This document shows positions 1,239 to 48,202 of a stretch of 64,000 nucleotides of DNA, one piece after another. The stretch comes from Diphasiastrum complanatum (Eukaryota; Streptophyta; Lycopodiopsida; Lycopodiales; Lycopodiaceae): contig CM055113.1 in assembly GCA_029204225.1 (NCBI GenBank), positions 24,362,357 through 24,426,356 of the forward strand, written 5' to 3'. The notes under the pieces were generated by a model. It was not told the origin of the DNA. It did not search any database and saw only the letters and a list, made by a program, of their open reading frames with translations. Positions within the stretch are counted from its first letter, which is position 1. Every line of letters starts with the position of its first letter. A program made the position numbers and the translations under genes.

Positions 1239-1726
1239 TATTACGGCCATATTCGGTTAAGGACCTGGAATAGTCCTAAGATGGTAGACCGGCCCTCTAA
1301 TGTTTGAGATTATTGGTCACGCCTAGATCTTATTCCACATCGAGGCCTGTTGGTGACTAATGACCTTGAGAGGACCCAGACACTCTAATTGAGACATATG
1401 GAGTAGTGCATGTACATGTGACTGATATAGGCAGGAGGTATGCATGTAGAGCTGTAACCTATTTATAGTTGACCTGCATGGGGATTGCATGTGCTCATGC
1501 ATAGGATCCTACTCTCCATATATTGAGGTAGTGATTATTCTGTTGACGACTTGGTCTAGGTTACCTGTTGAGATCTTCTCCTCTTGCTATCACATGGCAT
1601 GGCTTGGGGGCTATATCCAGGAGGATTATCCAGGAGGGATCTAGGTTTGGTTGGGTGGTTATGCTCCTCAATCTCTCTTGCGTTTTTCTATCCTCATCTT
1701 AGGGGTTTTCCCTAGTGGTCTTTACA
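1239..1726 (+). repeat. Probable 3' LTR of the Gypsy-like element at the left edge
   Basis: The stretch follows directly after a polypurine tract, contains a TATA-like 'ctatttatag' near 1459, and ends in 'ttaca'. A Copia reverse-transcriptase frame begins immediately afterwards in mid-protein. This fits an LTR end abutting interrupted host sequence. The other LTR would lie outside the window, so neither LTR identity nor a target duplication can be tested. Confidence 0.35.
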
Positions 1727-3243
1727 GAAGGGATGCCATGCAAAAGGAGTATGATGTTCTTATGGAGAATCATACATGGAAGCTTGTGGATCTTCCTCAT
1801 GGAAGAAAACCACTTGAGTGCAAATGGATCTATAGATTGAAGTATAATCAAGATGGGAGCATCAACAAACACAAGGCAAGGCTAGTGGCAAAGGGGTTCT
1901 TGCAAACCAAGGTAGTAGATTTTGATGAAACTTTTGCTCCTGTTGCTAAACTAGTTTCCATAAGGTTGAACATTTCTCTTGCAACTACTTTCAATTGGCC
2001 TCTATTTCAACTTGATGTGACTATTGCATTTCTCAACGGATATTTGGAAGTGGAGATCTTCATGAGGCAACCCAAGGGCTTCATCAAAGAAGATCAAGAG
2101 AAAAAAGTGTGTTTGTTGCTAGAAAGCCTTTATGGGCTTAAGCAAGCACCTAGATCTTGGTACTCTAGGTTGAATACTTTCTTGAACTCTATAAAATTTG
2201 TTGTAGGTGCTTATGATCCTTCTTTGTACTTACGATTCAATGATGGTAAGATCATCATTCTCATTTTGTATGTTGATGACATTATCCTTAGTGGAAGTGA
2301 TCATGATGGTATACAAGAAGTGAAAGTAGCATTGTTTAAAGAGTTTAAGATGGTGGATCTTGGTAATCTTCATTTTATATTAGGAATAGAAGTTTCAAGA
2401 GGCAAGGATTTGAGTTTTATTTTTCAATTCAAATATGCTTCTTCTATCTTAGAAAAGTTTGAAATGAAAGATTGTAAAGGAGTAGAAACTCCTATGGAGC
2501 AAAATGTAAAAGTTTCCAATAGTGATGATGAAGCATCCTTTGAGGACATCACACTATATAGGAGACTTGTAGGCTCCTTGATCTATCTTACTATAACTAG
2601 GCCTTATCTAAGTTATAGTGTAGGTAAACTTAGCCAATCTATGCAAAATCCATTGGTTTGTCATTGGAAAAATGCAAAAAGGGTGTTGAGGTACATCTCG
2701 ACCACCAAGAACTTTGGCATTTTATATGATGGATCTAATATTGCCTTAAGGGCATATTCATATGCTGATTTTGCAGGTGATAAGGTGGATAGGAGGTCCA
2801 CAAGTGCTTTTGTTACCTTCCTTTGCAATGGCATAGTGTCTTGGCTTTCCAAAAGGCAAGATACTATTTCTCTATCTTCAACCGAATCGGAATACAAGGC
2901 ACTAACATCCACAACAAAGGAGATCCTATGGTTGAAGAGGCTTTTGGTGGAGTTGCAAGTCATGGAGGCCGAGGAGCAGCCAATAATATTTTGTGACAAC
3001 CAATCAAGCCAAGCATTAGCAACCAATCCCATATTCCATGCAAGGAGCAAGCACATAGAGATTGCTCACCATTTTGTGAGGGAAAAGGTTCAAACAAAGG
3101 AGATCAAGCTACATCATGTGTCTTCTTTAGATTGCCTTGCTGATCTACTCACTAAAGCCTTGCCAAAGGCTTCATTTATCAAGTTAAGATCAGCTTTAGG
3201 AGTTGTAGATAGATGTACTATAGTTGTATCATGTAAAAATTGA
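1727..3243 (+). pseudogene. Ty1/Copia pol fragment: reverse transcriptase and RNase H
   Basis: One open frame gives a nearly complete Copia RT plus RNase H. Visible landmarks in order: CKWIYRLKYN and KARLVAKGF (RT start), FQLDVTIAFLNG, SLYGLKQAPRSWY, the catalytic LYVDDIIL near 2266, ADFAGDKVDRRST, SSTESEYKAL, and the RNase H tail from CDNQSS to IEIAHHFVREK. Real homology begins near the Met at 1738; residues upstream in the same frame look like read-through from the adjoining LTR. Gag, protease and integrase are missing on the left, where Gypsy-like sequence abuts. RT and RNase H themselves look intact, but the element cannot be autonomous as seen here. Confidence 0.9.
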
Positions 3244-4650: not shown

Positions 4651-4664
4651 TGGTATCAGAGCCA
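4651..4664 (+). other. Retrotransposon primer-binding site (initiator-Met tRNA type)
   Basis: TGGTATCAGAGCCA is the usual plant LTR-retrotransposon primer site, complementary to the 3' end of initiator methionine tRNA. It starts right after a CA-ending LTR and lies 51 bases before the gag start at 4716. Confidence 0.85.
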
Positions 4665-4715
4665 ACAAGTTATCACTACTGATATCCCAGCAGTGATTCT
4701 TCCAGACAACACAAT

Positions 4716-5810
4716 ATGGCTATGACAATCCAGACCAGAGTAGCAATCAGTCTTGATGGTGCAAATTATAGAAGCTGGAAATTCAAAATCAAAACACTCC
4801 TGAAGGGCGAAGACATCTGGTCAGTGACCGAGCTCTCAGAGGTGAAGCCTCCAAGGAGAGCTAAATGGATCAGAAAGGATGAGCGCGCAATGGCGATCAT
4901 CATTTTGTCCATAAATGAGGATCCACTCATGCAGATTGAAGACTGCAAAAGCAGCCATGCAGCGTGGGAAAGATTAAAGCAGAAGTATGAAGTGAGGACT
5001 ACAGCTTCAGTCATGCACCTTCACAATCAACTACAATCTATACGGTGGGATTGCAACCAGTTAGATCAGCATGTTGAGAAGATTAGAGCGATCTTCGCTC
5101 AACTCGCTGCATCAGGACAGGAGCACCATGTCCCAGCACCACAACAGCTGAAGTACTTCATGAAAGCTCTACCGACGTCCTATTAGCCGTTGAGAGTGCT
5201 CATAATGAGTCTACCAGATATGACATTCGACAAAGCAGTCAGTATTGTTGCTGATGAGAGACTGATGAGAGACAAAGGAGAGGGAAGCAGTGATCAAGAG
5301 AAGGCTCTCTTCACAAAAGAAAGGAAGAAGAACAAAAACAAGACAAGATTCGAGAAGACAAAGTCCTTGAATCAACAATCTTCTTCCTGCAATCACTGCC
5401 ACAAACCAGGCCATACGACCAACAAATGCTGGTTCAATCCAGCAATACCTTGCATGCATTGCAAGAAGAAAGGGCATTCTGCATACAACTACAAATTCCA
5501 CCCAAAAAGGAAAGACAGAGCTAAAAAGACAAACGTTGTAGAGTCATCAAAGGATGCTGAAAGAGGTGATGAAGCTTTCACGATACTCGACAAAGCTTCG
5601 ACAAGCTACTCTGAACACGACTACAATGTAGTCATCGATTTAGGAGCAACATCTCACATAGCTTGCAACAAGAAAATCTTGATCAACTTTCGCGAACTCG
5701 AAACAGAGCAGTGATTCTAGGTGATGGAAGCAGACACGATGTCAAAGGCATCGGCTCTCTACAGCTACGAGCACTGTCAGGCCAAGCAGAGCTGCCAGGA
5801 GCACTCTATA
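4716..5810 (+). pseudogene. Ty1/Copia gag and protease remnant
   Basis: The first frame (4716-5185) is a Copia-type gag: DGANYRSWKFKIK at the N-terminus, then DERAMAIIILSI and WERLKQKYEV. It stops at a TAG (5183-5185). The same protein continues from 5190 with MSLPDMTFDKAV, two CCHC-like knuckles (CNHCHKPGHTTNKC and CMHCKKKGHSAYNY) and a protease site VIDLGATSHIACN, where the usual DSGAT is DLGAT. Homology breaks near 5810 and the rest of pol is absent. The protein is clearly related to the minus-strand element at 53511-57050. The broken frame and altered protease motif indicate a dead copy. Confidence 0.85.
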
Positions 5811-12485: not shown

Positions 12486-13445
12486 CTATGCATCATCCAA
12501 GTTAAACTTCTGATCTTCATGGAAGATCACATCTCTACTAACAACATTCTTGTCAGTAGAGGGCAAATAAATCTTGTATGCTTTTTTAGTGGATGAATAT
12601 CCTACAAAAATTCCTTTTACTGCACTAGGATCTTCCTTCTTTCTAGTTTCTAGAGGCACATGCACAAAGCATACACAGCCAAAAATCCTAAGATGATCTA
12701 CCTTAGGCTTTTTCTTATACAACATCTCAAATGGTGTATTTTCTCCTATTGCAAGATTTAGAAGCTTATTACAAAGATAGTTTGCACATGCAATTGCCTC
12801 TCCCCAAAATTCTTTAGGCAAAGAAGCTTCTAGCCTAATGGCTTTTGCACATTCACACAAAGTTCTATTTTTTCTCTCAGCAACTCCATTTTGCTGAGGA
12901 GTATATGAACAAGAAAACTCTCTTTGAATACCCTCTCTCTCACAAAAGTCTTTAAACTTATTGGAAGTGTACTCTCCTCCACTATCACTTCTTAAAGCTT
13001 TTAACTTGAAAGGAAACTGCTTCTCTATATAAGCTTTGAAAGCAAGAAAAACATCGTAGACCATGGCTTTTGAAGACAACATATAGATCCAAGAATATCT
13101 TGTATAATCATCTACAAAAGAGACAAAGCAGTTGGCTCCTCCTTTGCTCTTAGTTGATGATAAATGAACATCAGAGTGTACAAGTTCAAATGGTTGCTTT
13201 GTCTTGATACTTGATCTAGGAAAAGGCCTTATGTGTGACTTTTCCATCACACAAGCTTCACAAGGTAGAAGCTCCTTTGACAGTGTCTTTGGTAGACCAA
13301 CAACTTTTCCTTCTTTGACCATAGATTGCATGGCTTTGAAATTGGGATGACCCAATCTCTTGTGCCACAGATCCTCCTGTAGAACCTTGGTCTCATAAGC
13401 AATATCTAAAATGCTAGCACTCTCCCTAGAATCTAGTTTGTACAA
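12486..13445 (-). pseudogene. Copia GAG-pre-integrase and integrase, nested element
   Basis: A 319-residue open frame carries the zinc-binding segment (WHKRLGHPNFKAM, CEACVMEKSHIRPF) and the integrase core: ELVHSDVHLSS, FVSFVDDYTRYSW, LRSDSGGEYTSNKF and QQNGVAERKNRTL, which carry the acidic residues. A conserved C-terminal stretch follows (KKPKVDHLRIFGCVCFVHVP, DVIFHEDQKF). No internal stop is present, so this is the best preserved part of the element. Confidence 0.9.
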
Positions 13446-13463
13446 CTTACCAATTCTAGGTCC

Positions 13464-21185: not shown

Positions 21186-22078
21186 ACGGATTGATGGTGT
21201 TGACCAAAACAAAATAAACTACATACTGGGCTTTTAGACCAAGAGTGCCATACATTTATGCCCCAAGCTATTGAGTAATGCCAACTTGAAGCCATAGAAG
21301 GAGCCATAAAATTATCGACTTTAGAGGCAAGTTTGCAGCATCTAAAAAAGAATATGATGGCAACACCGTGGAAACAACATAAGATGGAAACAACATCTCA
21401 AGCACGGCCTTTGAATCGAGACCTATTTTAGAGATCTTCTACACAAAATCAAATCCAATAGAGCTATCACTAGACTCCAACCCAGTACGAGTTCCTACCC
21501 AACGGAGCCGGTACTCTATGCATCATATTTCATTTGCAAGTAGTGTGGTAGATATACTAGGACCCACCTGGCATTTGGGCTGTCATTCCAAGCAATGTGG
21601 GCGCTCTGGCATCACTCAATAAAATTTTATAATAGCTTGACTCCCCAAGCCTGAATTTTCAACAGTTGCAACTTCCTCATCGGTGAGTCTGACGATTCTG
21701 ACCTCAATTGGCTAGCTATGCCATCACCATCCTCTCCACGTGATCATGTACGTTCTCAGTTGCATATGGCAGTTCGACACATATACACGTTGGCGAAGAA
21801 ATTGAGAGCAGAACAAGTTGTGTGTAACCTCTAGGCTCACTAGATACATCCATCACGGCTCCCTCTCTCTATTTGCTTTCTTTCCGTCGTGGGTTATTTC
21901 AGTCCAAAAGGTAAATTTATAACAATCCAAAAGGTAAATGTTCTAAAGGCGTGCCCTAGCATTTTAGACCAATTTGCTTATCATATGACGCATGTTGGAT
22001 GTTTCCATATTAAGACTAATGCTAGCATGGACATACAAAAAAATTTGATTACACAACTTAAATCCAGGGTCCTCTCTC

Positions 22079-22080
<2 letters not shown>

Positions 22081-22110
<30 letters not shown>
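22081..22110. repeat. (CT)15 microsatellite
   Basis: Thirty bases of uninterrupted CT repeats. Confidence 0.95.
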
Positions 22111-22114
<4 letters not shown>

Positions 22115-22523
22115 GAACTGATTTACAGGTTCAAGTGCATTTTCACATCATGCACTTTGGTTGTAGCAGCTACGTACATGATCTTGGATGATGTAAATCT
22201 ACAAGGATAAATCAAGAGAGAGCCATAGATGAGGAGCCGGACCTGCAAATGGAAATTTACTGGAGCTAGAGATGGAAATGTAGTTTATGCTAGATCTGGA
22301 GATGGAGTTTATGCGCCTCGAGCTGGAGAAAATTACGTTTATGTTTTTTATGTTTTCTTCGTGTATGTGTTTATGTTCAGAGCGCCCATCACCCGTAGGT
22401 TGGGAGCTCTTTCACCCTCATATGTTTACAACATCAAAGAAACACATACATCGGCCACCTGTCAACGACCATTGGCTTTCTTCCTAAACCATCAGCCGCC
22501 ATCCTAATCATCGGCCGTCATCC

Positions 22524-23260
22524 AAAAGTGACGTCATATATTTTTTTGGCATATTAAAGAATCTAAGTCTATGAAGACAATTTCACAAGGACACTATGCT
22601 CATGAAGAATATGACCCACAAAATGCAAAATTGGGACTTGCCAAAAATTTCAGCATTAAAGAGGGATTTTCCTCACCATTTTTTAGCCTTGGGCAAGGTC
22701 TTTTTAGTGACCTTTAGACCCAGTTCAACACGTGTTTAGTGATGGCTCGGCCTAACAGCCTTGCCATAATTTTAAGGCCAATTTACAAGTTGGAAAGGTC
22801 ATTTCGGAATACTTTCAAATCACTACACCAACATATGATGTCATCTTCAATTTATGCGGCATCGTCCAGCCCAGCCCTTTTTATCAACAATGTGAACAGA
22901 GGAGAGTACAATAAATAAATAAAAAGTGACTTCATATATTTTTTGGCACATTATAGAATCTAAGTCTATGAAGACAATTTCACAAACACACTATGCTCAT
23001 GAAAGGTTCATAAAAAAGTTTGAAAAGGGAAAATATGACCCATAAAATGCAAAATTGGGACTTGCCAAAAATTTCAGCGTTAAAAAGAGGGATTTTCCTC
23101 ACCATTCTTTATGCTTGGGCAAGGTCTTTTTAGTGACCTTTAGACCCAGTTCAACACGTGTTTAGTGATGGCTCGGCCTAACAGCCTTGCCATAATTTTA
23201 AGGCCAATTTACTGGTTGGAAATTTTTATTAACAATGTGAACAGAGGAGAGTACAATAAT
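22524..23260. repeat. Tandem duplication, offset about 398 bp
   Basis: Copy 1 starts with aaaagtgacgtcatat at 22524, copy 2 with aaaagtgacttcatat at 22922. They share 'tctaagtctatgaagacaat', 'gacttgccaaaaatttcag', 'gggcaaggtctttttagtg' and, at the end, 'caatgtgaacagaggagag'. Copy 2 lacks about 80 bp present at 22798-22877 in copy 1 and gains about 27 bp near 23006. No protein is encoded. Confidence 0.85.
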
Positions 23261-23742
23261 GACCAAGCTTGCACTAAGAAGGATCAGTGCATCACTAAAA
23301 AGAATGTGTAGGAGTACATGCACCCATGAGTAGATTGTGCTATCTACAAGGAGATTGGCATCCCATGGATTGATCAAATTGTGATAGTTTCCAAATGACA
23401 GCACAATTGCAATAGAATCATAAGTCAAAATGCAACCCATGGTTTGAAAAAAAGGAATGAGGAGCTCATTCATTATATTTTGCTAGCTTTGAAGATGGTA
23501 ATGAACGAATCAACCAATTCAGCTACTGCAGGAGCTGCTAGTGGCTCATCACGTTCACAGATAGCTCACCTTGAAGACTTGAAAGACACAAATACGATTA
23601 CACTCAACTTAACCAACTATCTCAGGTCCTTCCATAGAATGTATATACAATACATCACAGGCTAGGACTCGACATATTTACGGACACAGGACTGCACCCC
23701 ACACTGCTACTGATAGAATAAGAGGGCATCAGCTCAAAATGT

Positions 23743-26700
23743 TCAAAGCAATTGAAGCATTCCAGATACGTTTTTGTCGAGGTGCCTTTCCCTCAGGCGT
23801 CCTGCAATTACAAAAGCCAGCTCCAAAGATTGGGAGGCATTAAGTCTTGGATCACAATGGGTGTGGTAGCGAGAACTTAGATCATCCACACTGACCAACT
23901 TGGATCCACCAATGCATTCAGTCACATTCTGACCTGTCATTTCCAAATGAACTCCACCAGGGTGACTGCCTTCGTGTTGGTGCACATCAAAAAATGCACG
24001 AAGCTCAGCCTGCCAAGAAGTTCCCATGAGATTTATCAACAGCTTACATATATGTTTTTCTCAACCAAAGTATGTGTTTCTTTGAATCAGTTATAACAGC
24101 TTGAAAAAAATGATGTAAATAAAAGCATAGATCACCTGAACACTGTATTAAAACTTACTCGAATGGCATCGAAAGATCGAGTTTTGATTCCACTGATGGT
24201 TTTGATTGTATTACCATGCATGGGATCACTGACCCATGTCACGATGATACCTGATTGCCGCACAGCACGAATGAGATGGGGCAACTTTTTTCGAAGAATA
24301 TCTGCCCCCATTCGAACAATGATTGTCAATCTGCCAGGTTTGTTTTCCGGATTCAAAATCTTACAGACTTTAACCAGTTCACTGGGATCCATCTTATCAC
24401 TCACCTGCGGCACAGTAAAGACAGAGAAATCAATGTTTGCCAAAAGAGGCGGTTGCAGTTCAGAAACTGTTGAAAACCAGATGGAGCAATAAAATGAAGT
24501 TCCTGTTGCTCAAAGAAAAAGAATCAGAAGTGTAGGTTACTGGAAATTGCACAAAAGAACTAAAAGGAAGGAAATATAAAAGGGAGCTCAGGAAATCCTA
24601 CATTCATCAGGTATTAGATATCTTCATATCTCTTTTTGCTGCAGGAAAAATCAGCAGCCATTCTAAGGGCCCGGAGATGTTCAACTATAAATTCTTCCTT
24701 GATAACCCTTGGAAATAAGGAACCGTTGGGATTTGAGCCCAATACATTGATAGGACGTATGGGGTCACACGGCTACTTGGCAAGGAGTCAATGCGAGGAA
24801 GGGCATGTAAATAGATGACCCTGATCATAAAGATAGCGGCTTAGTGGATAAATATGATTAGGATTAATTAAGATTTCTTGCAATTAGATCTTTTAAGTAG
24901 GAGCCCATTGTGTAAGACAGCACGCTGGAATAGCAGAATGACACCTTCCATTTTGGGAACATTGTCTCCTACGTTTCTTGAACTGAGAGAGATAGAGAGA
25001 GTGAGAGCTGTTGCGTTCTGTCTATTTTGGTTTATGTTTAATGAATGCCTACAGATCGCACTACTTCAGCAAGCTGTATCAGTTTCTGAGCACTCTGATT
25101 CCGTCAATGGTTATGGGCCCACACACCAATGAAGACTGATTGGGAGATTCAAGTTCCGTGGAGCGGCAATTTTTTTTTTTGGATGTTCCAAGTTGTTGGA
25201 AGAAGATTGGGATGCTGGAGCAAGTATAGGGTCTTGTTCTTCAATGCATGCTGAAGTGTTGTATTGTCCTTGAAGGAATTCGATCTGCAGTGCCAGCAGT
25301 GGTGTCTGTAGCAATATTTTGAAGCAAGCATTGGTTGCTTGAAGAGCAGAACAAGAAGTTCTGAGAGAGAGATAGCACTGGGTGCTTGATTGTCGCAACA
25401 TGGAGGCTGCATCTTGAATGTCAAGGAGGGCATTGAGAGTTGGAACAAGGTGTGTAGCAAGGGCTGCATCTTGAAGAGCAGAACAAGAGGTTCTGAGAGA
25501 GAGACAACACTGGGTGCTTGACTGTGACAGCATGGAGGCTGCATCTTGCATGTCAAGGAGGACATTGAGAGTTGGAACAAGCGGAGGTGTGCAGCAAGGG
25601 CTGCACTGAGAAAGCTCAGACAGGGTACTTACTAGTTAGAACTCAAGGGGAAGTAGTGGGATACTGGAGGCTCATACTTCTGGAGAGAGTCACTAGGTGA
25701 GGTGAGGCTTGGTGCTTGTTTCTGTGTTTTGGAATGGCTTGAGATGGTAACCATTGTGGAATAATGATTTGAAGAAGGTCACTGCAAGAAAGGATCGTTA
25801 TGAAAATCTTCTTGTACATACACTGTCTTTGGATGTAGTGGGAGCTTTGGTGGAGTGAGTCTGATCATCAAGAACGTGTCGCGGGGAATCAGGGGCATGC
25901 GAATCAAAGGCAAAGGGTTTGTGCCTCCATCGAGGATCACAACCTTTTCTTCTTCCGCTGTTTCTGCAGCTGTGAAGGGGCCTTTTGTGGTCAGATATCT
26001 TAAGAAAGCTTGAGGATCGCAACCTTTACTACTGCAAAGGAGGCTTTCGTGGGCAGATTGATATTGTGGATCGTGAGCATCACTGCTGAGGATGAAGAAA
26101 AAGGGTGGGCCTTGGTACTTATGATGCACAGCTTGGACCAGGAATGCTTGGACCTCAGACAGGCTTAGGACCTTCCCGTACTCTAATTAAGCAACAGCTT
26201 GCTATGCTGCATGCAGAGATTCAAAGGCTTCTAACAGAAAACCAGCATCTTGCAGCTATTCATGTTGCTTTAGGAGAAGAAAGCGGAAGGAGAGAAGCAG
26301 ACACTAGTGGTGAGTCGTCACAGGCGGTGGCTGGTCAGAGACCAAGATTCTTTTGGTGATGGAGACCTAGCTCGTGGTCTTTCTGTGCTGTCTCAGCTTA
26401 ATCATGATTTTGGCATCTTGTTGGCACAGGGTGGCATCCGTGACAGTGCACACATGCTCATTACCTCACAGATGATGCCTCAGGTAGCTCAATCTTTGGG
26501 CACGAGCACGCAAATGAGGCATCAGTCTACACCAGTAACTCTTTCAGATTGGTCCAAGATCTTATATTGTGACAAGAAAAAGAATGAGAATGTGTTTAGG
26601 CTCAATATTGCGGAGCTGGCAAGTTTGTTGGCTACGAAAGGTGAGGGTTTTCACCCGCTCCTTGAATGACAAGGTGAACATGGGTTCACTTTCTCAATTC

Positions 26701-29700
26701 CTGTGAACAAATTTCCACCAATTCTAAAATACTGTTAGGTGGAAGCAAGGAAAGGGAAGGACAAAAGAAGAGAGAGCATGTCAATGGGGATGGAGGAAGA
26801 CGATGATGTTTGGTTAAAAGGGAAAGTGGTGCTTGCCACAGGTGGTCTTGGAAGGATGTTCTCACTAGCCTTGGCCACCCATGGCTGCCATGTCGTTATT
26901 GCTGCTCGCAGGGTGCAGCTCTTGCATTCTCTCCTCCAACACATCCAGTCTCTTTCTACTTCCACTGATTCCTTGGCATGTGAGCAGCAACAGCAGAGGC
27001 AGATGGCAGGAAAAGTAGCAATCTTGAAGCTGGATGTGAGTAACAGTGAGGTAAGCATGGATGCTTGGTGGAGAATGCTTGGAACGCTTTTGGGAAGATT
27101 GATATCCTGGTTAACAACACGGGCTTCAGAGGAACTGTGAAGTCATCTTTAGAGCTTGAAGATGATGAATGGAACAAAGTTATGGCTACCAATTTAAGGG
27201 GCATGTGGCTTGTAGCTAAATCTGTTGGAAGATATATTGTCGAAGAGTTGCAAGCTGCAAGGGGCCAACATAAGTTAGATATGCAAGTCATTACTCTGGT
27301 CAATGATACTGTTGGGACATTAGCAGGAGGCTAATACTGCAATGAAGAAGTCGGTTCTCGTTCTCGGATCGAACTCATGTTCACTCCTGTGAATATCGAA
27401 GAAGGTTGTCTCAGGTATTGTTGCAGATGCTGAACTTGTTGAAAGTTACATAATATTCAAGCCCGAGTTAGAGGGTGTTGGATACTACATGCGCTGTGAG
27501 TGCATAGTTTCAGATGCATTTGGAAGATTCGCTGACCCAGTCACATCCTTGATGGCACCAGTTGCGTCAGTTTTTCTTCGAGTGTATAGTGGAGGAAAGG
27601 AGGCCGAGAGGGCAAATCAATGGTTCAGAGCTATGGCTAAAAGATCTGACCTCATTCCCTTGCCTGGGAAAGTTGGAAAAATGACTGGAGCTAAAATGGT
27701 TAATCTTGTGCATGGATTGATGGCAAAGCTGGTGTTAGTGGTTCGTCTCTTTGATGTCATCAATGGGTATTCGCTGATGGAAATGAGCTTGCCCTGAAGG
27801 TCTTCAGGATTTTTCCTGTTGGTGCCCAATCATTCAAAGAATTGATAAAGACTGAAATTGGAATCTATGGTAGTCTGAAGAATGCAATGAAGAAAGATCA
27901 TGGACTGTCTACTCCAAAGCATGTAAGAAAGATCATGGACTGTCTACTCCAAAGCATGTAGTAGTTGTTGAAGATCAGAAGACTTGCAAAACACTGTGTT
28001 GAAGGCCAATGAAAGTGGTTGAGTGACTGACAGAGTAGAAGATGTGAAAATGGCTGAGTGGGCAGTCACAAAAGGCCATAGCTCGATGATAATATATTTT
28101 GTGACTCGTCTTACATCATGAGTATCTTTTAAATGTATTGGTTAGTTGGGAGATTGTTGGGATTTGTGCCCAATACATTGATAGGACGTATGGGGTCACA
28201 CGGCTACTTGGCAAGTAGTCAATGCGAGGAAGGGCATGTAAATAGATGACCCTGATCATAAAGATAGCGGCTTAGTGGATAAATATGATTAGGATTAATT
28301 AAGATTTCTTGTAATTAGATCTTTTAAGTAGGAGCCCATTGTATAAGACAGCACGCTGGAATAGCAGAATGACACCTTCCATTTTGGGAACATTGTATCC
28401 TACGTTTCTTGAACTGAGAGAGATAAAGAGAGTGAGAGCTTTTGCGTTGGTTTATGTTTAATGAATGCCTACAGATCGCACTATTTCAGCAAGCTATATC
28501 AGTTTCTGAACACTCTGATTCCATCAGGAACGTGATGCGATACGATACGTACCTTCACTCCTAAAGGATTTGCAATGCCACGAAGGAATTCGATGTGCGC
28601 ACCGTCTAATTGGCGTGTGCGCTCTCCCAGCCACAGCAGATGAGCAGAGCAATCATACCAAAGACCTGTGGTAGAGTCTTGTCGGGTCAAAGCCTGCTCA
28701 AAAGGAAGTAGTAAGCACTCATGGGATGTCCAGAATTCTGTGGTGGTCATGATGGGGTGATCCTTTGTCAGTCCACTTGCGGCCATGAAGCCTAAAGCTT
28801 CATCTACCCGGTTTGCCAGCTCCAAATACCTGCTTCACTTTCAAGTTCTTGTGAGCTGTTCTATCCTTGCCAGAAGACCAGAGTAAAATGCTTTGCTGTT
28901 AGACAAGAGAATGAAAATAAACCCACTAGAATGGTTATTAGAAGTTACAGGAGAAACAGAATATGTGGAAGGAATTTGACATTGAAGACGACTTTGGTTT
29001 CGTACCTTCCACCCTGTTCACTGTGCAAGGTAAAATCCAAGTTCCACTGAGTGACCCGCTGCATAGCTGCATAGCCTCCTGTGGCGAATGCACGCAATAA
29101 GTTTAGAGTTGCTGCAGCTTGGCAATAGGATCTCACCATGCGCTGGGGATCAGGAATACGAGATTCGCTGTCAAAGGCATCGCCGTTCACATTATCACCA
29201 CGGTAGCTCGGGAGTTTGACACCATTTACCACTTCAAAATGCTCTGATCTCGGCTTTGCGAATTGACCTGCCATTCGGCCAACCTGCTCCAACCACATAC
29301 AAAAAATTACAGCAACTTTTTTCATATCCAAAACCAATCCATATCACAATTGCGAAAAAAAGTATCAACCATCCTGATTAATGAAGAATTCCACGTAATC
29401 TAGCAACCTTGATCACGGGCATCTGTCCTCCGAACATGAGCACCACGCTCATCTGCAAAAGGACTCTGAACGTATCACGAATGTTGTTTGCACTAAATTC
29501 TTTGAAGCTCTCAGCGCAATCGCCTCCTTGCAATAAAAAAGCCCTGCCCAGAGCCGCTTCCGCAAGCCTGTCCTCCAAGCTGCGCGCTTCCCCTGCAAAT
29601 ACAAGGGGAGGGAAACTCTCAATCGTCTCAAGGACAGAATTGAGCTGCTCTGCATCAGGATAATCTGGCAGCTGCACAGCCTTTCTGGATCTCCAGCTGC

Positions 29701-29914
29701 TGCGATTCCAACTTCCTTCACTCTCACTAGCATCAATTCTTGGCTCTGCAACTTTGATGGGCTCTGCATGATTGTGCATTCCATAGATTGCAGCTCCAGG
29801 CTGCGATGCTGGCCTCCCTCCAGCGCTGCTGCTGCAAAATCTCTGAGATTTAGTGCCTTTAAATGCCAGCCAGACTGAACCGATCGCTGCTGCTGATCCC
29901 GCAGCACTGGCCAT
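23743..29914 (-). CDS. Class II DAHP synthase, plastid type, five exons
   Basis: 3-Deoxy-D-arabino-heptulosonate 7-phosphate synthase condenses phosphoenolpyruvate with erythrose 4-phosphate, the first step of the shikimate pathway. Exons on the minus strand: 29914-29408, 29283-29006, 28829-28553, 24404-24159 and 24009-23743. All borders are GT-AG and together give 1575 nt, 524 residues plus stop, the usual size for plant enzymes. Residues 1-70 ([15 protein letters not shown]…) are rich in Ala and Ser with no acidic residue until about residue 55, as in a plastid transit peptide. Family motifs: [29 protein letters not shown] across intron 1, [48 protein letters not shown] and HTHCDPRLN. Expected metal ligands are Cys133, His417, Glu459 and Asp489, spaced as in characterised class II enzymes. 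The reading frame is intact. Intron 3 (24405-28552) contains a whole LTR element. Confidence 0.95.
24724..25106 (+). repeat. 5' LTR of the gene-fragment element
   Basis: 383 bp. It matches 28155-28526 except for about 12 substitutions and an extra 11 bp around 25020 (ctgtctatttt). Confidence 0.92.
25336..25605 (+). repeat. Tandem duplication, 132-bp period, inside the LTR element
   Basis: Two adjoining units begin gaagagcagaacaagaagtt (25341) and gaagagcagaacaagaggtt (25473). Both contain 'ggaggctgcatcttg' and 'attgagagttggaacaag'. Frames are open on the minus strand in both, but no protein is recognised. Confidence 0.85.
26105..26330 (+). pseudogene. FLX-like coiled-coil protein fragment
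   Basis: The open frame contains [18 protein letters not shown] followed by [17 protein letters not shown]. This resembles the start of the plant FLX / FLX-like family, in which a segment of the type 'QH-EIQ-LL-DNQRLAATHVALKQEL' opens a long coiled coil. Only about 45 residues of similarity are present. No ATG opens it and the remaining coiled coil is missing. It sits between LTRs, in the sense direction of the element. I base the identity on this one conserved block. Confidence 0.6.
26331..26669 (+). other. Unidentified protein-like fragment in the LTR element
   Basis: An open frame overlapping the preceding fragment reads [37 protein letters not shown] and [15 protein letters not shown]. 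It looks like real, possibly captured, coding sequence, but I cannot place it in a family. It ends with a stop at 26669. Confidence 0.35.
26769..27334 (+). pseudogene. Short-chain dehydrogenase/reductase fragment, frameshifted
   Basis: The first frame (to about 27050) shows the Rossmann start [20 protein letters not shown], where the usual TGxxxGxG loop is shortened, and [10 protein letters not shown], then [14 protein letters not shown] frame change leads into 27065-27334 with [20 protein letters not shown] (the NNAG motif is NNTG) and [20 protein letters not shown]. The catalytic Ser and Tyr-x-x-x-Lys part is absent and the frame ends at a stop (27334). It is spliced-like, without introns. 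This is a broken copy of a plant SDR gene carried by the LTR element. Confidence 0.85.
27400..27700 (+). pseudogene. Unidentified captured fragment, possibly an AIR9-like A9 repeat
   Basis: The frame reads [20 protein letters not shown], then [20 protein letters not shown] and [20 protein letters not shown]. The first half recalls the Ig-like A9 repeats of the plant microtubule-associated protein AIR9 (…VGY-LRCE-VV-DA-G…). The second half is not recognised. The assignment is weak, and the boundary with the enolase piece that follows is uncertain. Confidence 0.3.
27700..28105 (+). pseudogene. Enolase fragment, frameshifted and internally deleted
   Basis: [10 protein letters not shown]-type sequence near 27745 (enolase FNVINGGSHAGN) runs, after a frame change at about 27768, into [20 protein letters not shown] and [20 protein letters not shown]. 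This parallels enolase '[29 protein letters not shown]'. After a 40-bp local duplication around 27890-27960 the sequence continues [19 protein letters not shown]. That corresponds to the enolase stretch '[21 protein letters not shown]', far downstream in the protein. The middle of the gene, with most catalytic residues, is missing. No introns are present at these points. The copy cannot make enzyme. Confidence 0.75.
28155..28526 (+). repeat. 3' LTR of the gene-fragment element
   Basis: 372 bp, TG…CA, followed by the GGAAC duplication. Its right end is 26 nt from the exon-3 border of the DAHP synthase gene (28553). Confidence 0.92.
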
Positions 29915-30024
29915 CGCTCTATGCGCTCCAACGACACACCAACAATTTCAATTCCAATTCCAATTCATTTATTGCTCTCTAAACCCTAAATCTTGAATCC
30001 TCCCCAATGTCCCTATATTTGGCT
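29915..30024 (-). promoter_or_regulatory. Presumed 5' UTR and core promoter of the DAHP synthase gene
   Basis: Upstream of the ATG (29914) there is a telo-box-like AAACCCTAAA on the plus strand (29981-29990). This element is frequent near plant transcription starts. A TATA-like AAATATA on the minus strand lies at 30014-30020, about 100 nt before the ATG. The start site itself cannot be located. Confidence 0.35.
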
Positions 30025-30103
30025 TTGCCTTGCAAAGGCAATACTATGTGTTGAGGTATATGTGTTTTTGGCCTTGCCTTGCAAAGGCAATACTATGTGT
30101 TGA
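30018..30103. repeat. Duplicated 37-bp unit with a small inverted repeat
   Basis: 'ggctttgccttgcaaaggca…' at 30018-30054 recurs at 30067-30103 with one change. Each copy has TGCCTT-GCA-AAGGCA, a 6-bp stem with a 3-base loop. It overlaps the presumed DAHP synthase promoter. Confidence 0.8.
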
Positions 30104-30105
30104 CT

Positions 30106-33100
30106 AATGGGCCACTAATGCCCGTTAAATGACGATAATAGAAGGGCCTACTTTTCATTACCTTTCAACATAGGAAATAAGATGAGATGATGGTGGTGTA
30201 GATCTGCTGATGAGCATACCTAGAAGGAAACATCAATGATTAGCAGTTGTCAGATTAGTATGGGAAGCATCTTAAGCATAGAAGACTCCAGAAGGATGAA
30301 ACGTGCATTCAACATGCAAATTAAATTGATACAAGCTGTTTGCTTTTGTTGAATAGCACCAGTGTTTTCAACAACTGATTTAAGACCTTTGCCAAGCGCA
30401 AATCTTAAGAGATCCAAACGAGAAGAGTCAACTAAAGCTCAATGATCTGTGGATGTGAGTACCGGATCTAGGTCTGCAATCACTCTAGTAGGTCACAAAC
30501 TTGACATATCAATCACTCCAGTTTTGAAGTTCTTCTCCTGTATAAGGCATCAAACTATGGTTGTGATTGATCAAAACAAAACATGAAATGATGATGAAGA
30601 TGAATATTGTCTGCCTTCAAGTGAATATTGATCAAATCCTATAAAGCATTCCGTGATCAGTTATGTACTCATGCAAATTTTGTGGAAAGATGCAATAAAC
30701 ACGCTCTGACGCTCTGCCTGATGCATGAAGGTCGCCCTTCACGCCTGAAGGGCACCCGACAATTTCTTTGTTATGCTTTGGTGTAGCGCATTCTGGTATA
30801 TTATGATGCCTGTTTTTAACGAAAAATCGGCAGGCATGTTATTAACGTGTTGAGGTAGGTCAATGGAGTTTGGAAAGAAGTCAATGTTAAAGGATATTCT
30901 ATAATGGTAGCCAAAATTTTGAAGGCATGAACTTTGATTAAAGGCTAAACTAACATGCATATGTTTTTATCAAAAAGTTCTTAGGAGCGCATGCAAACAA
31001 TGCACGATGCAGAAGGCCAAAAAGGCAAAACATGTGAATGTGATGCTTTATTCATCTTCCAGCAAGGATATAATGCATGCATGAGGTTGAAAACTTCAAA
31101 GGCTGAAACTAATTTATGGCGGTGCATAATCTGCAGATGATCGAGTCTTCTTTTCTATCGATCTGATTGTTTAGCGGCCATTCTTTGTGGACTTTTAGAT
31201 CCAGTTTTTTGTTTCATCTTTTGGGTTTCATTTCGTTGGAGCATTGAAGTGAGGGCCCTTATCTTGTGTTTGTTTCTTGTTGAGTTTCCTTTAAGGTGTT
31301 TTGGATCGCTATTCTTGGTGTCTGCTAAGGGTAGCACAATGATGGTGTATATTTCCACTAGCTATGGAAGAAGTATGTCACTGATGGGAGAGGCAGAGAG
31401 CATTGCAATCAAGACCTGTCTTGCTCGCAAATTATTCGACAAGGTTAAGGCAAATCATAATCAACAGGTAATATAGGAAGCAAACAAAGGTAGGTTGCAA
31501 TTGGCACTGTCATGTGTTGATGACAATGGTGCCTTGGGGGGGAGCTCTGATGATGCTACATGCCAAACACTGTGACGTTGAGGATTGGAGTAGTTTGCAA
31601 TTACAAAAAGGAGGCATCTCACAACTAGCTCTGTGTTTACATTCCAAAAGAATTTTGAAGGAATTTAAAGATCTATAGAAGGACCCTCCAACATCATGCA
31701 ATGCTGGTAATCAAATTCTTTGTTCCTTTTGGTTGTCGGTCGTTGATAAGTTTAGGTGGTGGTCAATCCTTCCATGTATTCAAAAGATCTGCAAAATGAG
31801 CTATTGGATATTTGTAGCATCGTAGTCACAAAGATAATTGCAAAAGCTTCTTAGAGCTGTATGATTAAAGTTTTGTGTGCAATATCAAAGATTCCTTCTA
31901 GAATCCTTTACATAGATAGGAAGGTTCAAGAAAGTTCGATCTGAAAGGCCAAGTGTACCAAGATAATTTCTTCCTATTTTAGAAGCATTTTACAAATTTC
32001 TAAATTTCATAGATTTGAGATTCAAAAATATTCTTCTTAAAAGTTCCTTCAAAATCAAAATCTATTGAGTTCGTTAATATGTAGGTTAAGTTAAAATTTT
32101 AAAATTAGGAACAAGGCTAAATTTCATGTGTGCCCATTAGCCGGGGGTGTAAAAAAAGCAAGCACAAAAAAGCGAGCGTCGAGAGAGCAGCATGCTACCA
32201 GTATAAGACAATTAATAAATTTGTCATAGTGAAACTTTTGTCATATAATTTCACCCAGAGGATTATGAGTTAAAGATGGACCTTTCATGACAATGGTAAA
32301 TTATGTTAGACAACACTCATAGATTCAAGAAATGAGCATTCTGAACAACACACACGATTACAGTCAACCACATACACTGAAAAATAGCGAAAAATAATGT
32401 TGTCAAATTGCTCTATTATTTCTATTGCCTAAGTTCTGTGCACAGATGGCAGATGTTTGTTTGATGTTATGGATGATGCAAATGATTATGCACTATGAGA
32501 GATGCATACAAATTTGTGTCAGAATGTGAATCTGCAACTTATTTGAAAAATATGTGTTTGAGAACCCAATAGGTTGTGGCCTTCCTTACATGGAAGATTT
32601 CTACCAGCCGTTGAAATAGAAATAGAACATCCATCTCCTCATTTTGGATTATCTAAGGTTTCGATGTTGTAACCAATATGATGTTTAAATAGGTCGGACT
32701 CCTTTGTACAAGTGATGATCCATTGAAAGGCAGAATGTATCATCTGAATGTAAACTATATCAGACTTGCGCTGCATTGTCATTTTCCCTGCTGCGTGATT
32801 TCACATATGAAAGTCATTTGATATGTGTGTCCACAACACTCACATTCAGAGGCTACATAGCTTGATATGCAAAGTTTTGAGCCTATGTGTGTCCACAACT
32901 CAGTTTATCAAGTCAATGTTTTGGTTAAATAGGGGAAAGAGTATCTCTTATGTTGTGGACTACTTTGTTAAATGTTGAAGTGGATTTAAATCTTTTCTAG
33001 TGTGAGATATTGTTATAATTTCATGAATTAGAGCTGTAGAACTCAAGTTACATTGAAGTGGTCATGATCAGGCCAAAATAAGGTGCTATTCTGGTAATCC

Positions 33101-37343: not shown

Positions 37344-38413
37344 TGTCGTAAAACGGTGGGAGCATGAACGACAACAGAAGCTCGAGGATTTGAGCGTGGC
37401 GTGTAGGAACAGACACACAACAGTTAGCAGCAGGAATGTTCAAGTAGAAGAATTCATATAGAATGCGCAAATGAACGATGCAGTAGTGAGACAAAAATTG
37501 CACTCTGATAAAAATCAACAACGAGTACAATGGCTTGAAGTAATAACTTCAGCTTGTTGAGCGTGATAATGCTGGCTACAGAAAAACTTTGATTAAAAGA
37601 AGAAATTCAATTAACACTTGCATAGCTTGATTCAACTAGTATATATATTTACAAGTGTCGAGAGAGAAATATCTTGTTCCTTAACTGCCATTTACTCCAG
37701 TTTTGCATCTATACAAAAGTTGGTAACCGCCCTTAGGATATTTGTTTCTCCACCTGTTTTAGGGTTGATGATAAGTTGGCGACATTGGTCTGCCAATGTA
37801 GCAAAAACGTGAAAAACCCGAAGGTGCCCTTTCGACTGAAGGTATGCAACTCTTGAAGGTGCCCTTAGACTTAAGGTGTGTGCAAATCCCTAAGGCACCT
37901 ATAGACTAAAGGCAGCAAAAAAGACGAAGGTGCCTTAAGAATGGTTTCTAAGGCATTCTTGCCAGCCTTATACTGAAGGCAGCGAAGAAGCCGGAAAAGG
38001 CAAAAAAAGACGAAGGTGCCTTATACTAAAGTTTTAGCGAACAAGGCAAAGGTGCCTTAGATTGAAGGCAGTGAAAAGCCGAAAAAGGAGAAAGTGCCTT
38101 TAAAATGATTTCAAAGGCATTCTAGCCACTTGGCCACTATGTCGCATTTTCATGAAGTTGCAAAAAGGCGAAAAGGAGAAGGTGCCTTAAAAAATGATTT
38201 CTAAGGCATTTTGGCCACTTGCCCACTGTGTCGCTTTTTTTGCGAAGTCGCGAAAAAGGCGAAAAAGGAGAAGGTGCCTTAAAAACGTTTAAGACATAGG
38301 GAAAAACTTTAAAGGGAAAAAGTGAAGGTCCGAAATTATGTTCTCGGCCTTCCATTTTCAAGATGCTCATTACTTGGTGATTTTCTTTAAGGCTGAACAT
38401 TAGAAATCTAACA
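37344..38413 (-). repeat. 5' LTR, full length, with sub-repeat array
   Basis: 1070 bp, TG…CA. The array at about 37810-38300 mirrors that in the other LTR: repeated 'gaaggtgccttaa' and 'tttctaaggcattc' blocks. Confidence 0.93.
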
Positions 38414-38487
38414 CTTGTATCTATCTTTCTATCTCTCTCAACACTCTCTCTCTCAAACCCTAGCATGTCTTTTCTTTGCTCTACTCT

Positions 38488-41369
<2,882 letters not shown>

Positions 41370-46226: not shown

Positions 46227-47159
46227 CTAATGTGGATCAAGCATCGATCTTGAGATAAGACCAAGATTAGATCTATGCTTTGAGAAGGCACTTTTGCAAA
46301 GTGTCTTTGTGAGAAGATCAACAATACATGAAGATGTGTCGACATGTTCCAAGTTGATTTCACCTCCAATGAGCTTTTCCCTTACAAAATGGTGTGCCAC
46401 TTCTATATGCTTGGTTCTTGCATGAAAAATAGGATTGTTTGCAAGAGCTTGGGCCGATATGTTGTCACACTTGATCAAGGGAAGATCATCCTCTTTGATG
46501 CACTTTAGCTCCATGATTAACCTCTTGATCCAAAGCACCTCTTTAGTTGTTGCAGTGAGTGCTTTGTACTCGGCCTCACAAGAAGATAGAGATATGGTAT
46601 CTTGCTTCTTTGAAAGCCAAGACACAAGATTGCCTCCAAGAAAGATAGTATATGCATTAGTGGACTTTCGATCCATTTTATCACTTGCAAAATCGGAATC
46701 CGAATAGCCAACAATGGTTAGATCTTCATTCTTATACAATAAACCATAATCTTGAGTAGAAGATACATATCTTAGAACTCTCTTGGCCATCTTCCAATGT
46801 TGGATCTTAGGATCTTGCATAAATTGACCTAATTTGTGCACACAATAGCTTAAATCGGGTCTAGTGATAGTAAGCCAAATTAAAGAGCCTATAAGACTCC
46901 TATAAAGTGTGATGTCCTCGAAGGATCTTTCATCACCTTTAATAGGGTCTTTTACATGTTGCTCCATGGGAGTATCTATGCCTTTACAATTTTGCATATT
47001 GAATTTTCTCAACATAGAAAAGACATATCTAGATTGACAAATAAAAGCATACTCTTCTTGAAAATCAATCTTAAGGCCTAAAATATAGTGGATCTCTCCT
47101 AGATCTTGCATTTTAAATTCTCCTCCTAATGCATCCTTAGTTTCTTGAACTAGCATCAA
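46227..47159 (-). pseudogene. Copia RT end and RNase H
   Basis: A 310-residue open frame runs from FKMQDLGEIHYILGLKI through KRVLRYVSSTQDYG, GYSDSDFASDKMDRKST, SLSSCEAEYKALTATTKEV and HARTKHIEVAHHFVREKL to DLLTKTL. It continues the RT block to its right after a frameshift close to the YVDD site. Length and motifs are those of the C-terminal third of a Copia polyprotein. Confidence 0.9.
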
Positions 47160-48202
47160 ACAACTTCCACTAAAATAATGTCATCTACATAGATTAGAAG
47201 AATGACAATATTACTACCATCAAACTTTAAGTACATAGAAGGATTATAGTCACTAAGCACAAATCCTAATGAAAGTAGAAAGTTGTTGAGTCTTGAATAC
47301 CATGATCTAGGTGCTTGCTTCAAGCCATAAAGACTTTTAAATAGAAAACACACCTTAGATTTATCCTTGATGAATCCTTGAGGTTGTTCCATGTATATCT
47401 CCTCTTCAAGATAGCCATTCATAAAAATGTTGGAGACATCAAGCTGATACAATTTTCACTTAAAAAATAAGGCAAGAGAGATTATGATTCTTATTGTCAC
47501 CATCTTTGCTACAGGAGAAAAGGTTTCTTCATAGTCAAGGCCATATATTTGTGCAAAGCCTTTAGCACATAATCTTGCCTTGTACTTGTTGATGGAGCCA
47601 TCATGATTGTACTTGATCTTGAACACCCACTTGTATCCATTGATGTGCATGTTAGGTGGTGGATCCACTAGCTCCCATGTATGGTTGGTGATTAAGGCAT
47701 CATATTCAATCTTCATGGCCTCATACAACTCCTCGGTATTGAGGGCTTCTTGGACATCTTTGGGCTCCTCATGAGAAACAAAATAAGCATAGGTGGAATC
47801 AAGATCCACTTGTTTTCCTTTGTCATCATAAGTGAGCCTCTTAGGCTTGGATCTCTCCCTCATGGATCTTCTAGGAGTGAGAATCCGAGGACTTCCATCT
47901 TCAAATCTCGACCCCTCCATATGTTGATTGCCTTCAATAACAAAAGGTGTTAGATTTTGAGGTTGCTTGATCTCGGCCCCTCCAAGATTGGACTTTTCTT
48001 CTTCATGAAAAACTACATCTCTACTATCAATTACTTTAGAAGTAGAGAGCATGTAGATTTGATAGGCTTTCTTGTTGGATGAATATCCAACCATTACTCT
48101 TTTGCTTGCACAAGGATCATCCTTCTTTCTTGTTTCCAAGGAAATATGGACAAAGCATATGCATCCAAATACTCTAAAGTGATCAACCTTAGGTTTCTTC
48201 AA
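47156..48202 (-). pseudogene. Copia integrase C-terminus and reverse transcriptase
   Basis: Frame 48202-47456 covers VDHFRVFGCICFVHI (integrase tail), the linker, EALNTEELYEAMKIEYDAL, GYKWVFKIKYN, KARLCAKGFAQ and FSPVAKMVTIR. A stop follows; the protein resumes at 47452 with YQLDVSNIFMNGYLEEEIY, SLYGLKQAPRSWYSRL and the catalytic LLIYVDDIIL (about 47170). Only a stop and a frameshift break the RT. Confidence 0.9.

Follow-up and report, generated by a model that had tools for sequence, protein, structure and literature searches.

A 64,000-nucleotide stretch of the Diphasiastrum complanatum genome (assembly GCA_029204225.1, contig CM055113.1, positions 24,362,357 to 24,426,356 of the forward strand; hereafter the window, with coordinates counted from its first base) contains at positions 24719-28531 a non-autonomous long terminal repeat (LTR) retrotransposon that carries pieces of six host genes, and we consider it likely that the family to which this element belongs has repeatedly incorporated into its interior, while being reverse transcribed, fragments of spliced host mRNAs. 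The DNA presents paired LTRs, a target site duplication, a conserved primer site, host parents for the pieces, exact loss of parental introns and a common sense orientation, together with short shared bases at a join between pieces and dispersed copies with different cargo. The framework of the element is as follows:

24405..28552, minus strand: intron of the class-II DAHP synthase host gene, defined by its splice sites and containing the element
24719..24723, plus strand: left target site duplication GGAAC, an exact copy of the right one
24724..25106, plus strand: 5' LTR, beginning CG
25107..25878, plus strand: leader, common to sibling elements
25109..25129, plus strand: primer-binding site GGTTATGGGCCCACACACCAA
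25338-25449 and 25470-25581, plus strand: 112-bp direct repeat in the leader
27881..27950, plus strand: 35-bp tandem duplication
27908..28154, plus strand: 3' tail, common to sibling elements, with a purine-rich end
28155..28526, plus strand: 3' LTR, TG..CA
28527..28531, plus strand: right target site duplication GGAAC

Two direct LTRs within a flanking target duplication identify the element as an LTR retrotransposon. The LTRs are identical at 360 of 373 aligned sites (the alignment takes in 1-2 bases past each LTR), differing by 8 transitions, 5 transversions (13 substitutions; Kimura two-parameter distance 0.036) and one 11-bp indel; their first two bases are CG in the 5' LTR and TG in the 3' LTR, and the window has two occurrences of the LTR start motif, against 0.00 expected from 100 shuffles. 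Likewise characteristic of LTR retrotransposons is the tRNA-complementary primer site 3' of the 5' LTR, the first 14 bases of which are complementary to what we take to be the anticodon arm of initiator tRNA-Met, presumably a half-tRNA primer. The sequence GGTTATGGGCCCA at 25109 occurs only once in the window at up to one mismatch (0.01 expected), and the 21-base primer site recurs unchanged, again after the LTR, at five sibling loci (L014, L021, L024, L025, and L027). Other primer-like sites in the window (TGGTATCAGAGC) lie at 4651, 15402, 37343, and 50956. No gag or pol match was returned by Pfam for the 20 element open reading frames scanned, out of 73 listed of at least 35 amino acids, and the idea of a gag-pol hidden in the interior was rejected on the same scans. 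The host gene (Pfam PF01474, four exons, minus strand) is antisense to the element, and the target duplication starts 21 bases inside its splice donor. A first-pass annotation of this DNA, which had read from it LTRs about 3% different, an exact GGAAC duplication, no gag-pol and a location in a DAHP synthase intron, thus proves accurate on all these points.

Parents of the interior pieces were sought by DNA and family searches in the same genome (1.74 Gb, 5,176 contigs), and six host genes were identified, namely FLX-like, Senescence-regulator/S40, SDR, hexokinase, AIR9, and enolase, whose pieces all lie in the sense direction of the element and together occupy 1,581 of the 3,048 interior bases (about 1.58 of 3.05 kb):

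25879..26108, plus strand: segment without assigned source gene, present among the loci mapped only in the window element, its duplicate L009, and L011
26109..26281, plus strand: FLX-like coding-exon piece, 91% like its parent at C13:25701128-25701300
26296..26583, plus strand: Senescence-regulator (S40) piece, 80% like its parent at C4:69648478-69648762
26584..26734, plus strand: segment without assigned source gene
26735..27230, plus strand: SDR 5' part, exon 1 to 27131 and exon 2 from 27132; parent on C6
27224..27230, plus strand: GTTGGAA at the SDR-hexokinase join, 7 bases common to both parents
27224..27351, plus strand: hexokinase piece, two exons joined at 27298/27299; parent on C8
27344..27670, plus strand: AIR9 piece, joins at 27429/27430 and 27570/27571; parent on C15
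27724..27907, plus strand: enolase piece, joins at 27799/27800 and 27880/27881; enolase gene on C2

Among the frames of the element, Pfam recognizes SDR (E value 1.1e-10), hexokinase (3.7e-6), and enolase (2.8e-6), and also Senescence_reg (0.0074) and AIR9 (0.081), two matches that are weak when taken alone. The protein of the C4 parent matches Senescence_reg at 8.7e-42, backing the name S40 that we assume for it; FLX-like is likewise our presumed name, with no Pfam family behind it. Compared exon by exon, i) the SDR piece is 87% like parent exon 1 and 97% like exon 2; ii) the hexokinase piece, which has an in-frame TAA, is 86% and 83% like its two C8 exons, and a paralogue lies on C2; iii) the AIR9 piece is 84% and 81% like two C15 exons, the match to the third being shorter and gapped, and a search of the AIR9 frame against PDB gave no useful match (best E value 0.17); iv) the FLX-like piece is 83% like a paralogue on C18; and v) the closest enolase exons, found on C2 by a Pfam family search, are 70-76% alike and mark the closest relative rather than a certain parent, a DNA search of the genome having yielded copies of the element plus a single short hit, at C2:8338898. 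The first-pass annotation had correctly read the FLX-like, SDR, and enolase pieces and their sense orientation, but its total of three genes gives way to six with the addition of hexokinase, S40, and AIR9, and the location of parents elsewhere in the same genome excludes the outcome for which it had allowed, that the fragments match no host genes.

The pieces of four genes cross exon borders, and for these two parent exon ends were joined and then aligned to the element. All six introns tested, each GT..AG in the parent, are absent without a gap at the join: the SDR join is identical at 87/90 positions (C6 parent intron of 13,264 bp); the hexokinase join at 75/90 (C8, 615 bp); the AIR9 joins at 44/48 and 49/63 (C15, 181 and 1,188 bp); and the enolase joins at 68/87, where a single gap lies off the join, and 47/68 (C2, 735 and 271 bp). 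The second join of AIR9a was left out of the tally, the join having been set one base off so that each of its four rows shows a one-base gap, and the FLX-like and S40 pieces, each from one continuous coding stretch, are uninformative on introns. Removal of parent introns precisely at splice sites marks RNA-mediated capture; we conclude that the pieces came from spliced mRNA, and that DNA-level capture is excluded for SDR, hexokinase, AIR9, and enolase. The joins between pieces add to this picture: besides the 7 bases at the SDR-hexokinase join, the hexokinase-AIR9 join lies within GAAGA(A/T)GT, 8 bases with one mismatch, and such short shared bases, taken as they stand rather than against a random model, would suit template switching by reverse transcriptase.

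The suggestion of the first-pass annotation that the element may belong to a family is borne out by a genome search with the whole element, which returned at least 80 matches; 40 of 104 candidates were scored, so that counts are lower bounds, and 18 modules were mapped on 23 loci (L009 to L031), of which L022, L029, L030, and L031 are host genes and L009 is a segmental duplicate of the window. The LTR, the leader, and the AIR9-enolase 3' end are common to relatives elsewhere, and among the loci mapped it is the middle that differs. Specifically, i) 10 of the 18 other loci (L013, L014, L016, L017, L018, L021, and L024-L027) carry pieces of a second cargo set, drawn from BTB, ATP-synthase delta, the S40 N terminus, or a stretch of AIR9 earlier than that in the window element, and in L018 Pfam finds BTB at 7e-7 and ATP-synt_DE_N at 6.6e-15; ii) 3 of the 18 have features of the window type, L019 with SDR-hexokinase-AIR9 at 86%, L011 with the leader plus the adjoining unassigned segment (25879..26108 in the window element), and L010 with SDR-hexokinase-AIR9-enolase-LTR and a 5.3-kb interruption; and iii) the remaining five (L012, L015, L020, L023, and L028) hold LTR, leader or tail pieces and no distinguishing cargo, L028 holding little cargo and, at each end, LTR pieces. 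Since L010 also holds a portion of FLX together with the N-terminal S40 piece typical of the second set, it is a mixture of cargo types; a target duplication for the insertion that interrupts it was sought and rejected, the edges having no exact match. Eight host genes have thus been identified across a family with alternative cargo sets, and since relatives carry different sets, acquisition of the pieces took more than a single step. The claim of the first-pass annotation that a multi-gene element moved as a unit is supported by the LTRs, the target duplication, the sense-oriented pieces, and parents on other chromosomes; its word for this, transduplication, is a DNA-transposon term and fits poorly, because the introns are gone and the mechanism is RNA-based.

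Not every copy is evidence of movement. A second full-length match at C22:24477855-24481667 lies within a stretch, C22:24474800-24484700 (L009), that equals window positions 21689-31586 inverted at 99.5% identity over at least 9.9 kb, about 90 kb away, and that includes the DAHP synthase exons as well as the element. Because the whole 9.9 kb matches in this way, we rejected the copy as proof of transposition; the inverted pair stems either from a recent segmental duplication or from the assembly. Parts of L014 and L025, and of L013 and L026, are also nearly identical (C2:69494500-69513500, C4:10153500-10172000), in keeping with another segmental duplication, and L014 and L025 are therefore not independent. 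A spliced AIR9 fragment (161-191 bp, 90-94% like that of L018) recurs at eight places, starting at almost the same point in each, two of which, L043:1511-1701 and L044:977-1167, lie among (GA)n repeats.

The second cargo set contains an excursion from one message into another. A genome search with the L018 interior placed its parents on C21 (BTB) and C19 (ATP-synthase delta): the BTB cDNA breaks off at parent base 36162961 and, after 0.5 kb of ATP-synthase sequence, resumes one base further on. The ATP-synthase piece starts within a (GA)n stretch that immediately precedes its start codon, none of the four sibling loci aligned retains the 13,283-bp ATP-synthase-delta intron, and L021 has the same BTB cDNA uninterrupted, without the ATP-synthase piece. 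The simplest reading would be that reverse transcriptase departed from the element RNA, followed the ATP-synthase mRNA almost to its 5' end, and then returned. Insertion at a single point inside the BTB piece, absent from L021, would also be expected if the fragments were first processed retrocopies made by long interspersed nuclear elements, inserted in an LTR element and later carried along; however, neither poly-A nor a target duplication is present at the insert in the sequence inspected, the placeable pieces are internal and lack mRNA 3' ends, and the SDR-hexokinase join falls within bases common to both parents, and we regard such an origin as unlikely.

Capture during reverse transcription, the origin we prefer, would begin with element RNA on which a half tRNA serves as primer and an enzyme provided in trans does the copying; the enzyme would occasionally leave the element RNA, go on along a host mRNA at short shared bases, and return to an element RNA, and the daughter DNA would retain both LTRs and be inserted; recombination between element RNAs would then mix the cargo sets. 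Packaging of the host mRNA alongside that of the element is our inference, as are the helper and the sequence in which pieces were gained. Several observations weigh against this origin: i) it calls for both a helper and host-mRNA packaging; ii) about 48% of the interior has no assigned source, and, given the likeness of its closest exons, the identity of the enolase parent is not certain; iii) where the FLX piece ends, element and parent diverge after GAAGAA with no further shared bases, and 14 bases without known source separate the FLX and S40 pieces; iv) the hexokinase piece starts exactly at the first base of its exon, a start that the shared bases explain but that chance need not give; v) the resumption of BTB at one point without a target duplication could also reflect cDNA repair of a break; and vi) among the loci mapped, none of the siblings combines complete cargo with two complete LTRs. 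A bolder proposal, that the family is a habitual sampler of host mRNAs in which frequent template switching generates mosaics of at least six spliced messages, excursions, and exchanged cargo sets, we advance tentatively, as a possibility somewhat short of even.

It is also conceivable, but quite improbable in our judgment, that selection acts, or once acted, on the element as a chimeric gene kept by its protein, like the maize LTR element Bs1, which retains a gag. One open frame of 149 codons is present in L019; divergence among copies is nearly neutral, with the ratio of nonsynonymous to synonymous substitution rates (dN/dS) near-neutral in most pairs, a reading that excludes two comparisons with SDR parent exons in which the reference was out of frame. 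Least probable of all is DNA-level exon capture in the style of Helitrons or Pack-MULEs, later enclosed by LTRs, which could draw on the presence of a 191-bp spliced AIR9 fragment in other repeats, one copy of which (L043) adjoins, by eye, a Helitron-helicase-like frame, but which fails on the absence of all six testable introns at their splice sites.

The closest precedent is Bs1, which a review describes as a low-copy element with pieces of three host genes, those for an H+-ATPase, a xylan endohydrolase, and a glucanase; that review also counts abnormal template switching among the ways in which genes are captured (PMC13317346). Bs1 and the window element are alike as LTR elements holding several unrelated host-gene pieces, but differ in number, three genes in Bs1 against six in the window element and eight, with alternative cargo sets, in its family. 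Gene-carrying LTR elements of the same kind are reported, in the parts of the surveys available, from rice, sorghum (672 rice and 1,343 sorghum genes; PMC3726574), and maize (425 intact elements with gene pieces and at least 189 captures; PMC2774510). Under the conditions of the maize survey no element is reported with pieces of more than one standard nuclear gene (PMC2774510), against six in the window element; that figure is a guide only, since the conditions of the survey evidently left out Bs1. Template switching has also been proposed for fused Triticeae elements, but Veju, BARE-2, and the Triticeae fusions, as far as the accessible text describes them, join element RNAs or unknown DNA, whereas the window element joins several host mRNAs (PMC1950507). 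Pack-MULEs and gene-carrying Helitrons resemble the window element in holding several host-gene pieces per mobile element, but they are DNA elements, whereas the window element has LTRs and lacks the parent introns. In a literature search that mostly left subscription papers outside, we found no description of a six-host-gene element or of this family, and nothing on point concerning lycophyte gene-capturing LTR elements. The kind of element is already known; its gene count, its pair of cargo sets, and the excursion set this one apart as a variant.

If our reading is correct, LTR retrotransposons can join many unrelated spliced mRNAs on a scale known mainly from DNA transposons; on the bolder proposal of a habitual sampler, the family would do among retrotransposons what Pack-MULEs do in gene shuffling. 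Joins that can be read between known parents would make the frequency and sequences of switching between element and host RNAs open to direct study, and whether such mosaics feed new genes or silence parent genes would also become approachable.

At L015:4464-5132 the LTR and leader of the family run straight into a Copia pol, 93-95% like the one at window 46.4-47.8 kb; no second LTR was seen in the 8 kb of L015, and the join is possibly a fusion, a deletion, or the remnant of a helper. Elsewhere in the window, remnants of Copia-type gag, integrase, and reverse transcriptase lie at 1645-3240, 4683-5183, 12486-13460, and 46227-47177, and a long (GA)n tract at 38137-38963 is read in the open reading frame list as RERE and SLSL runs.

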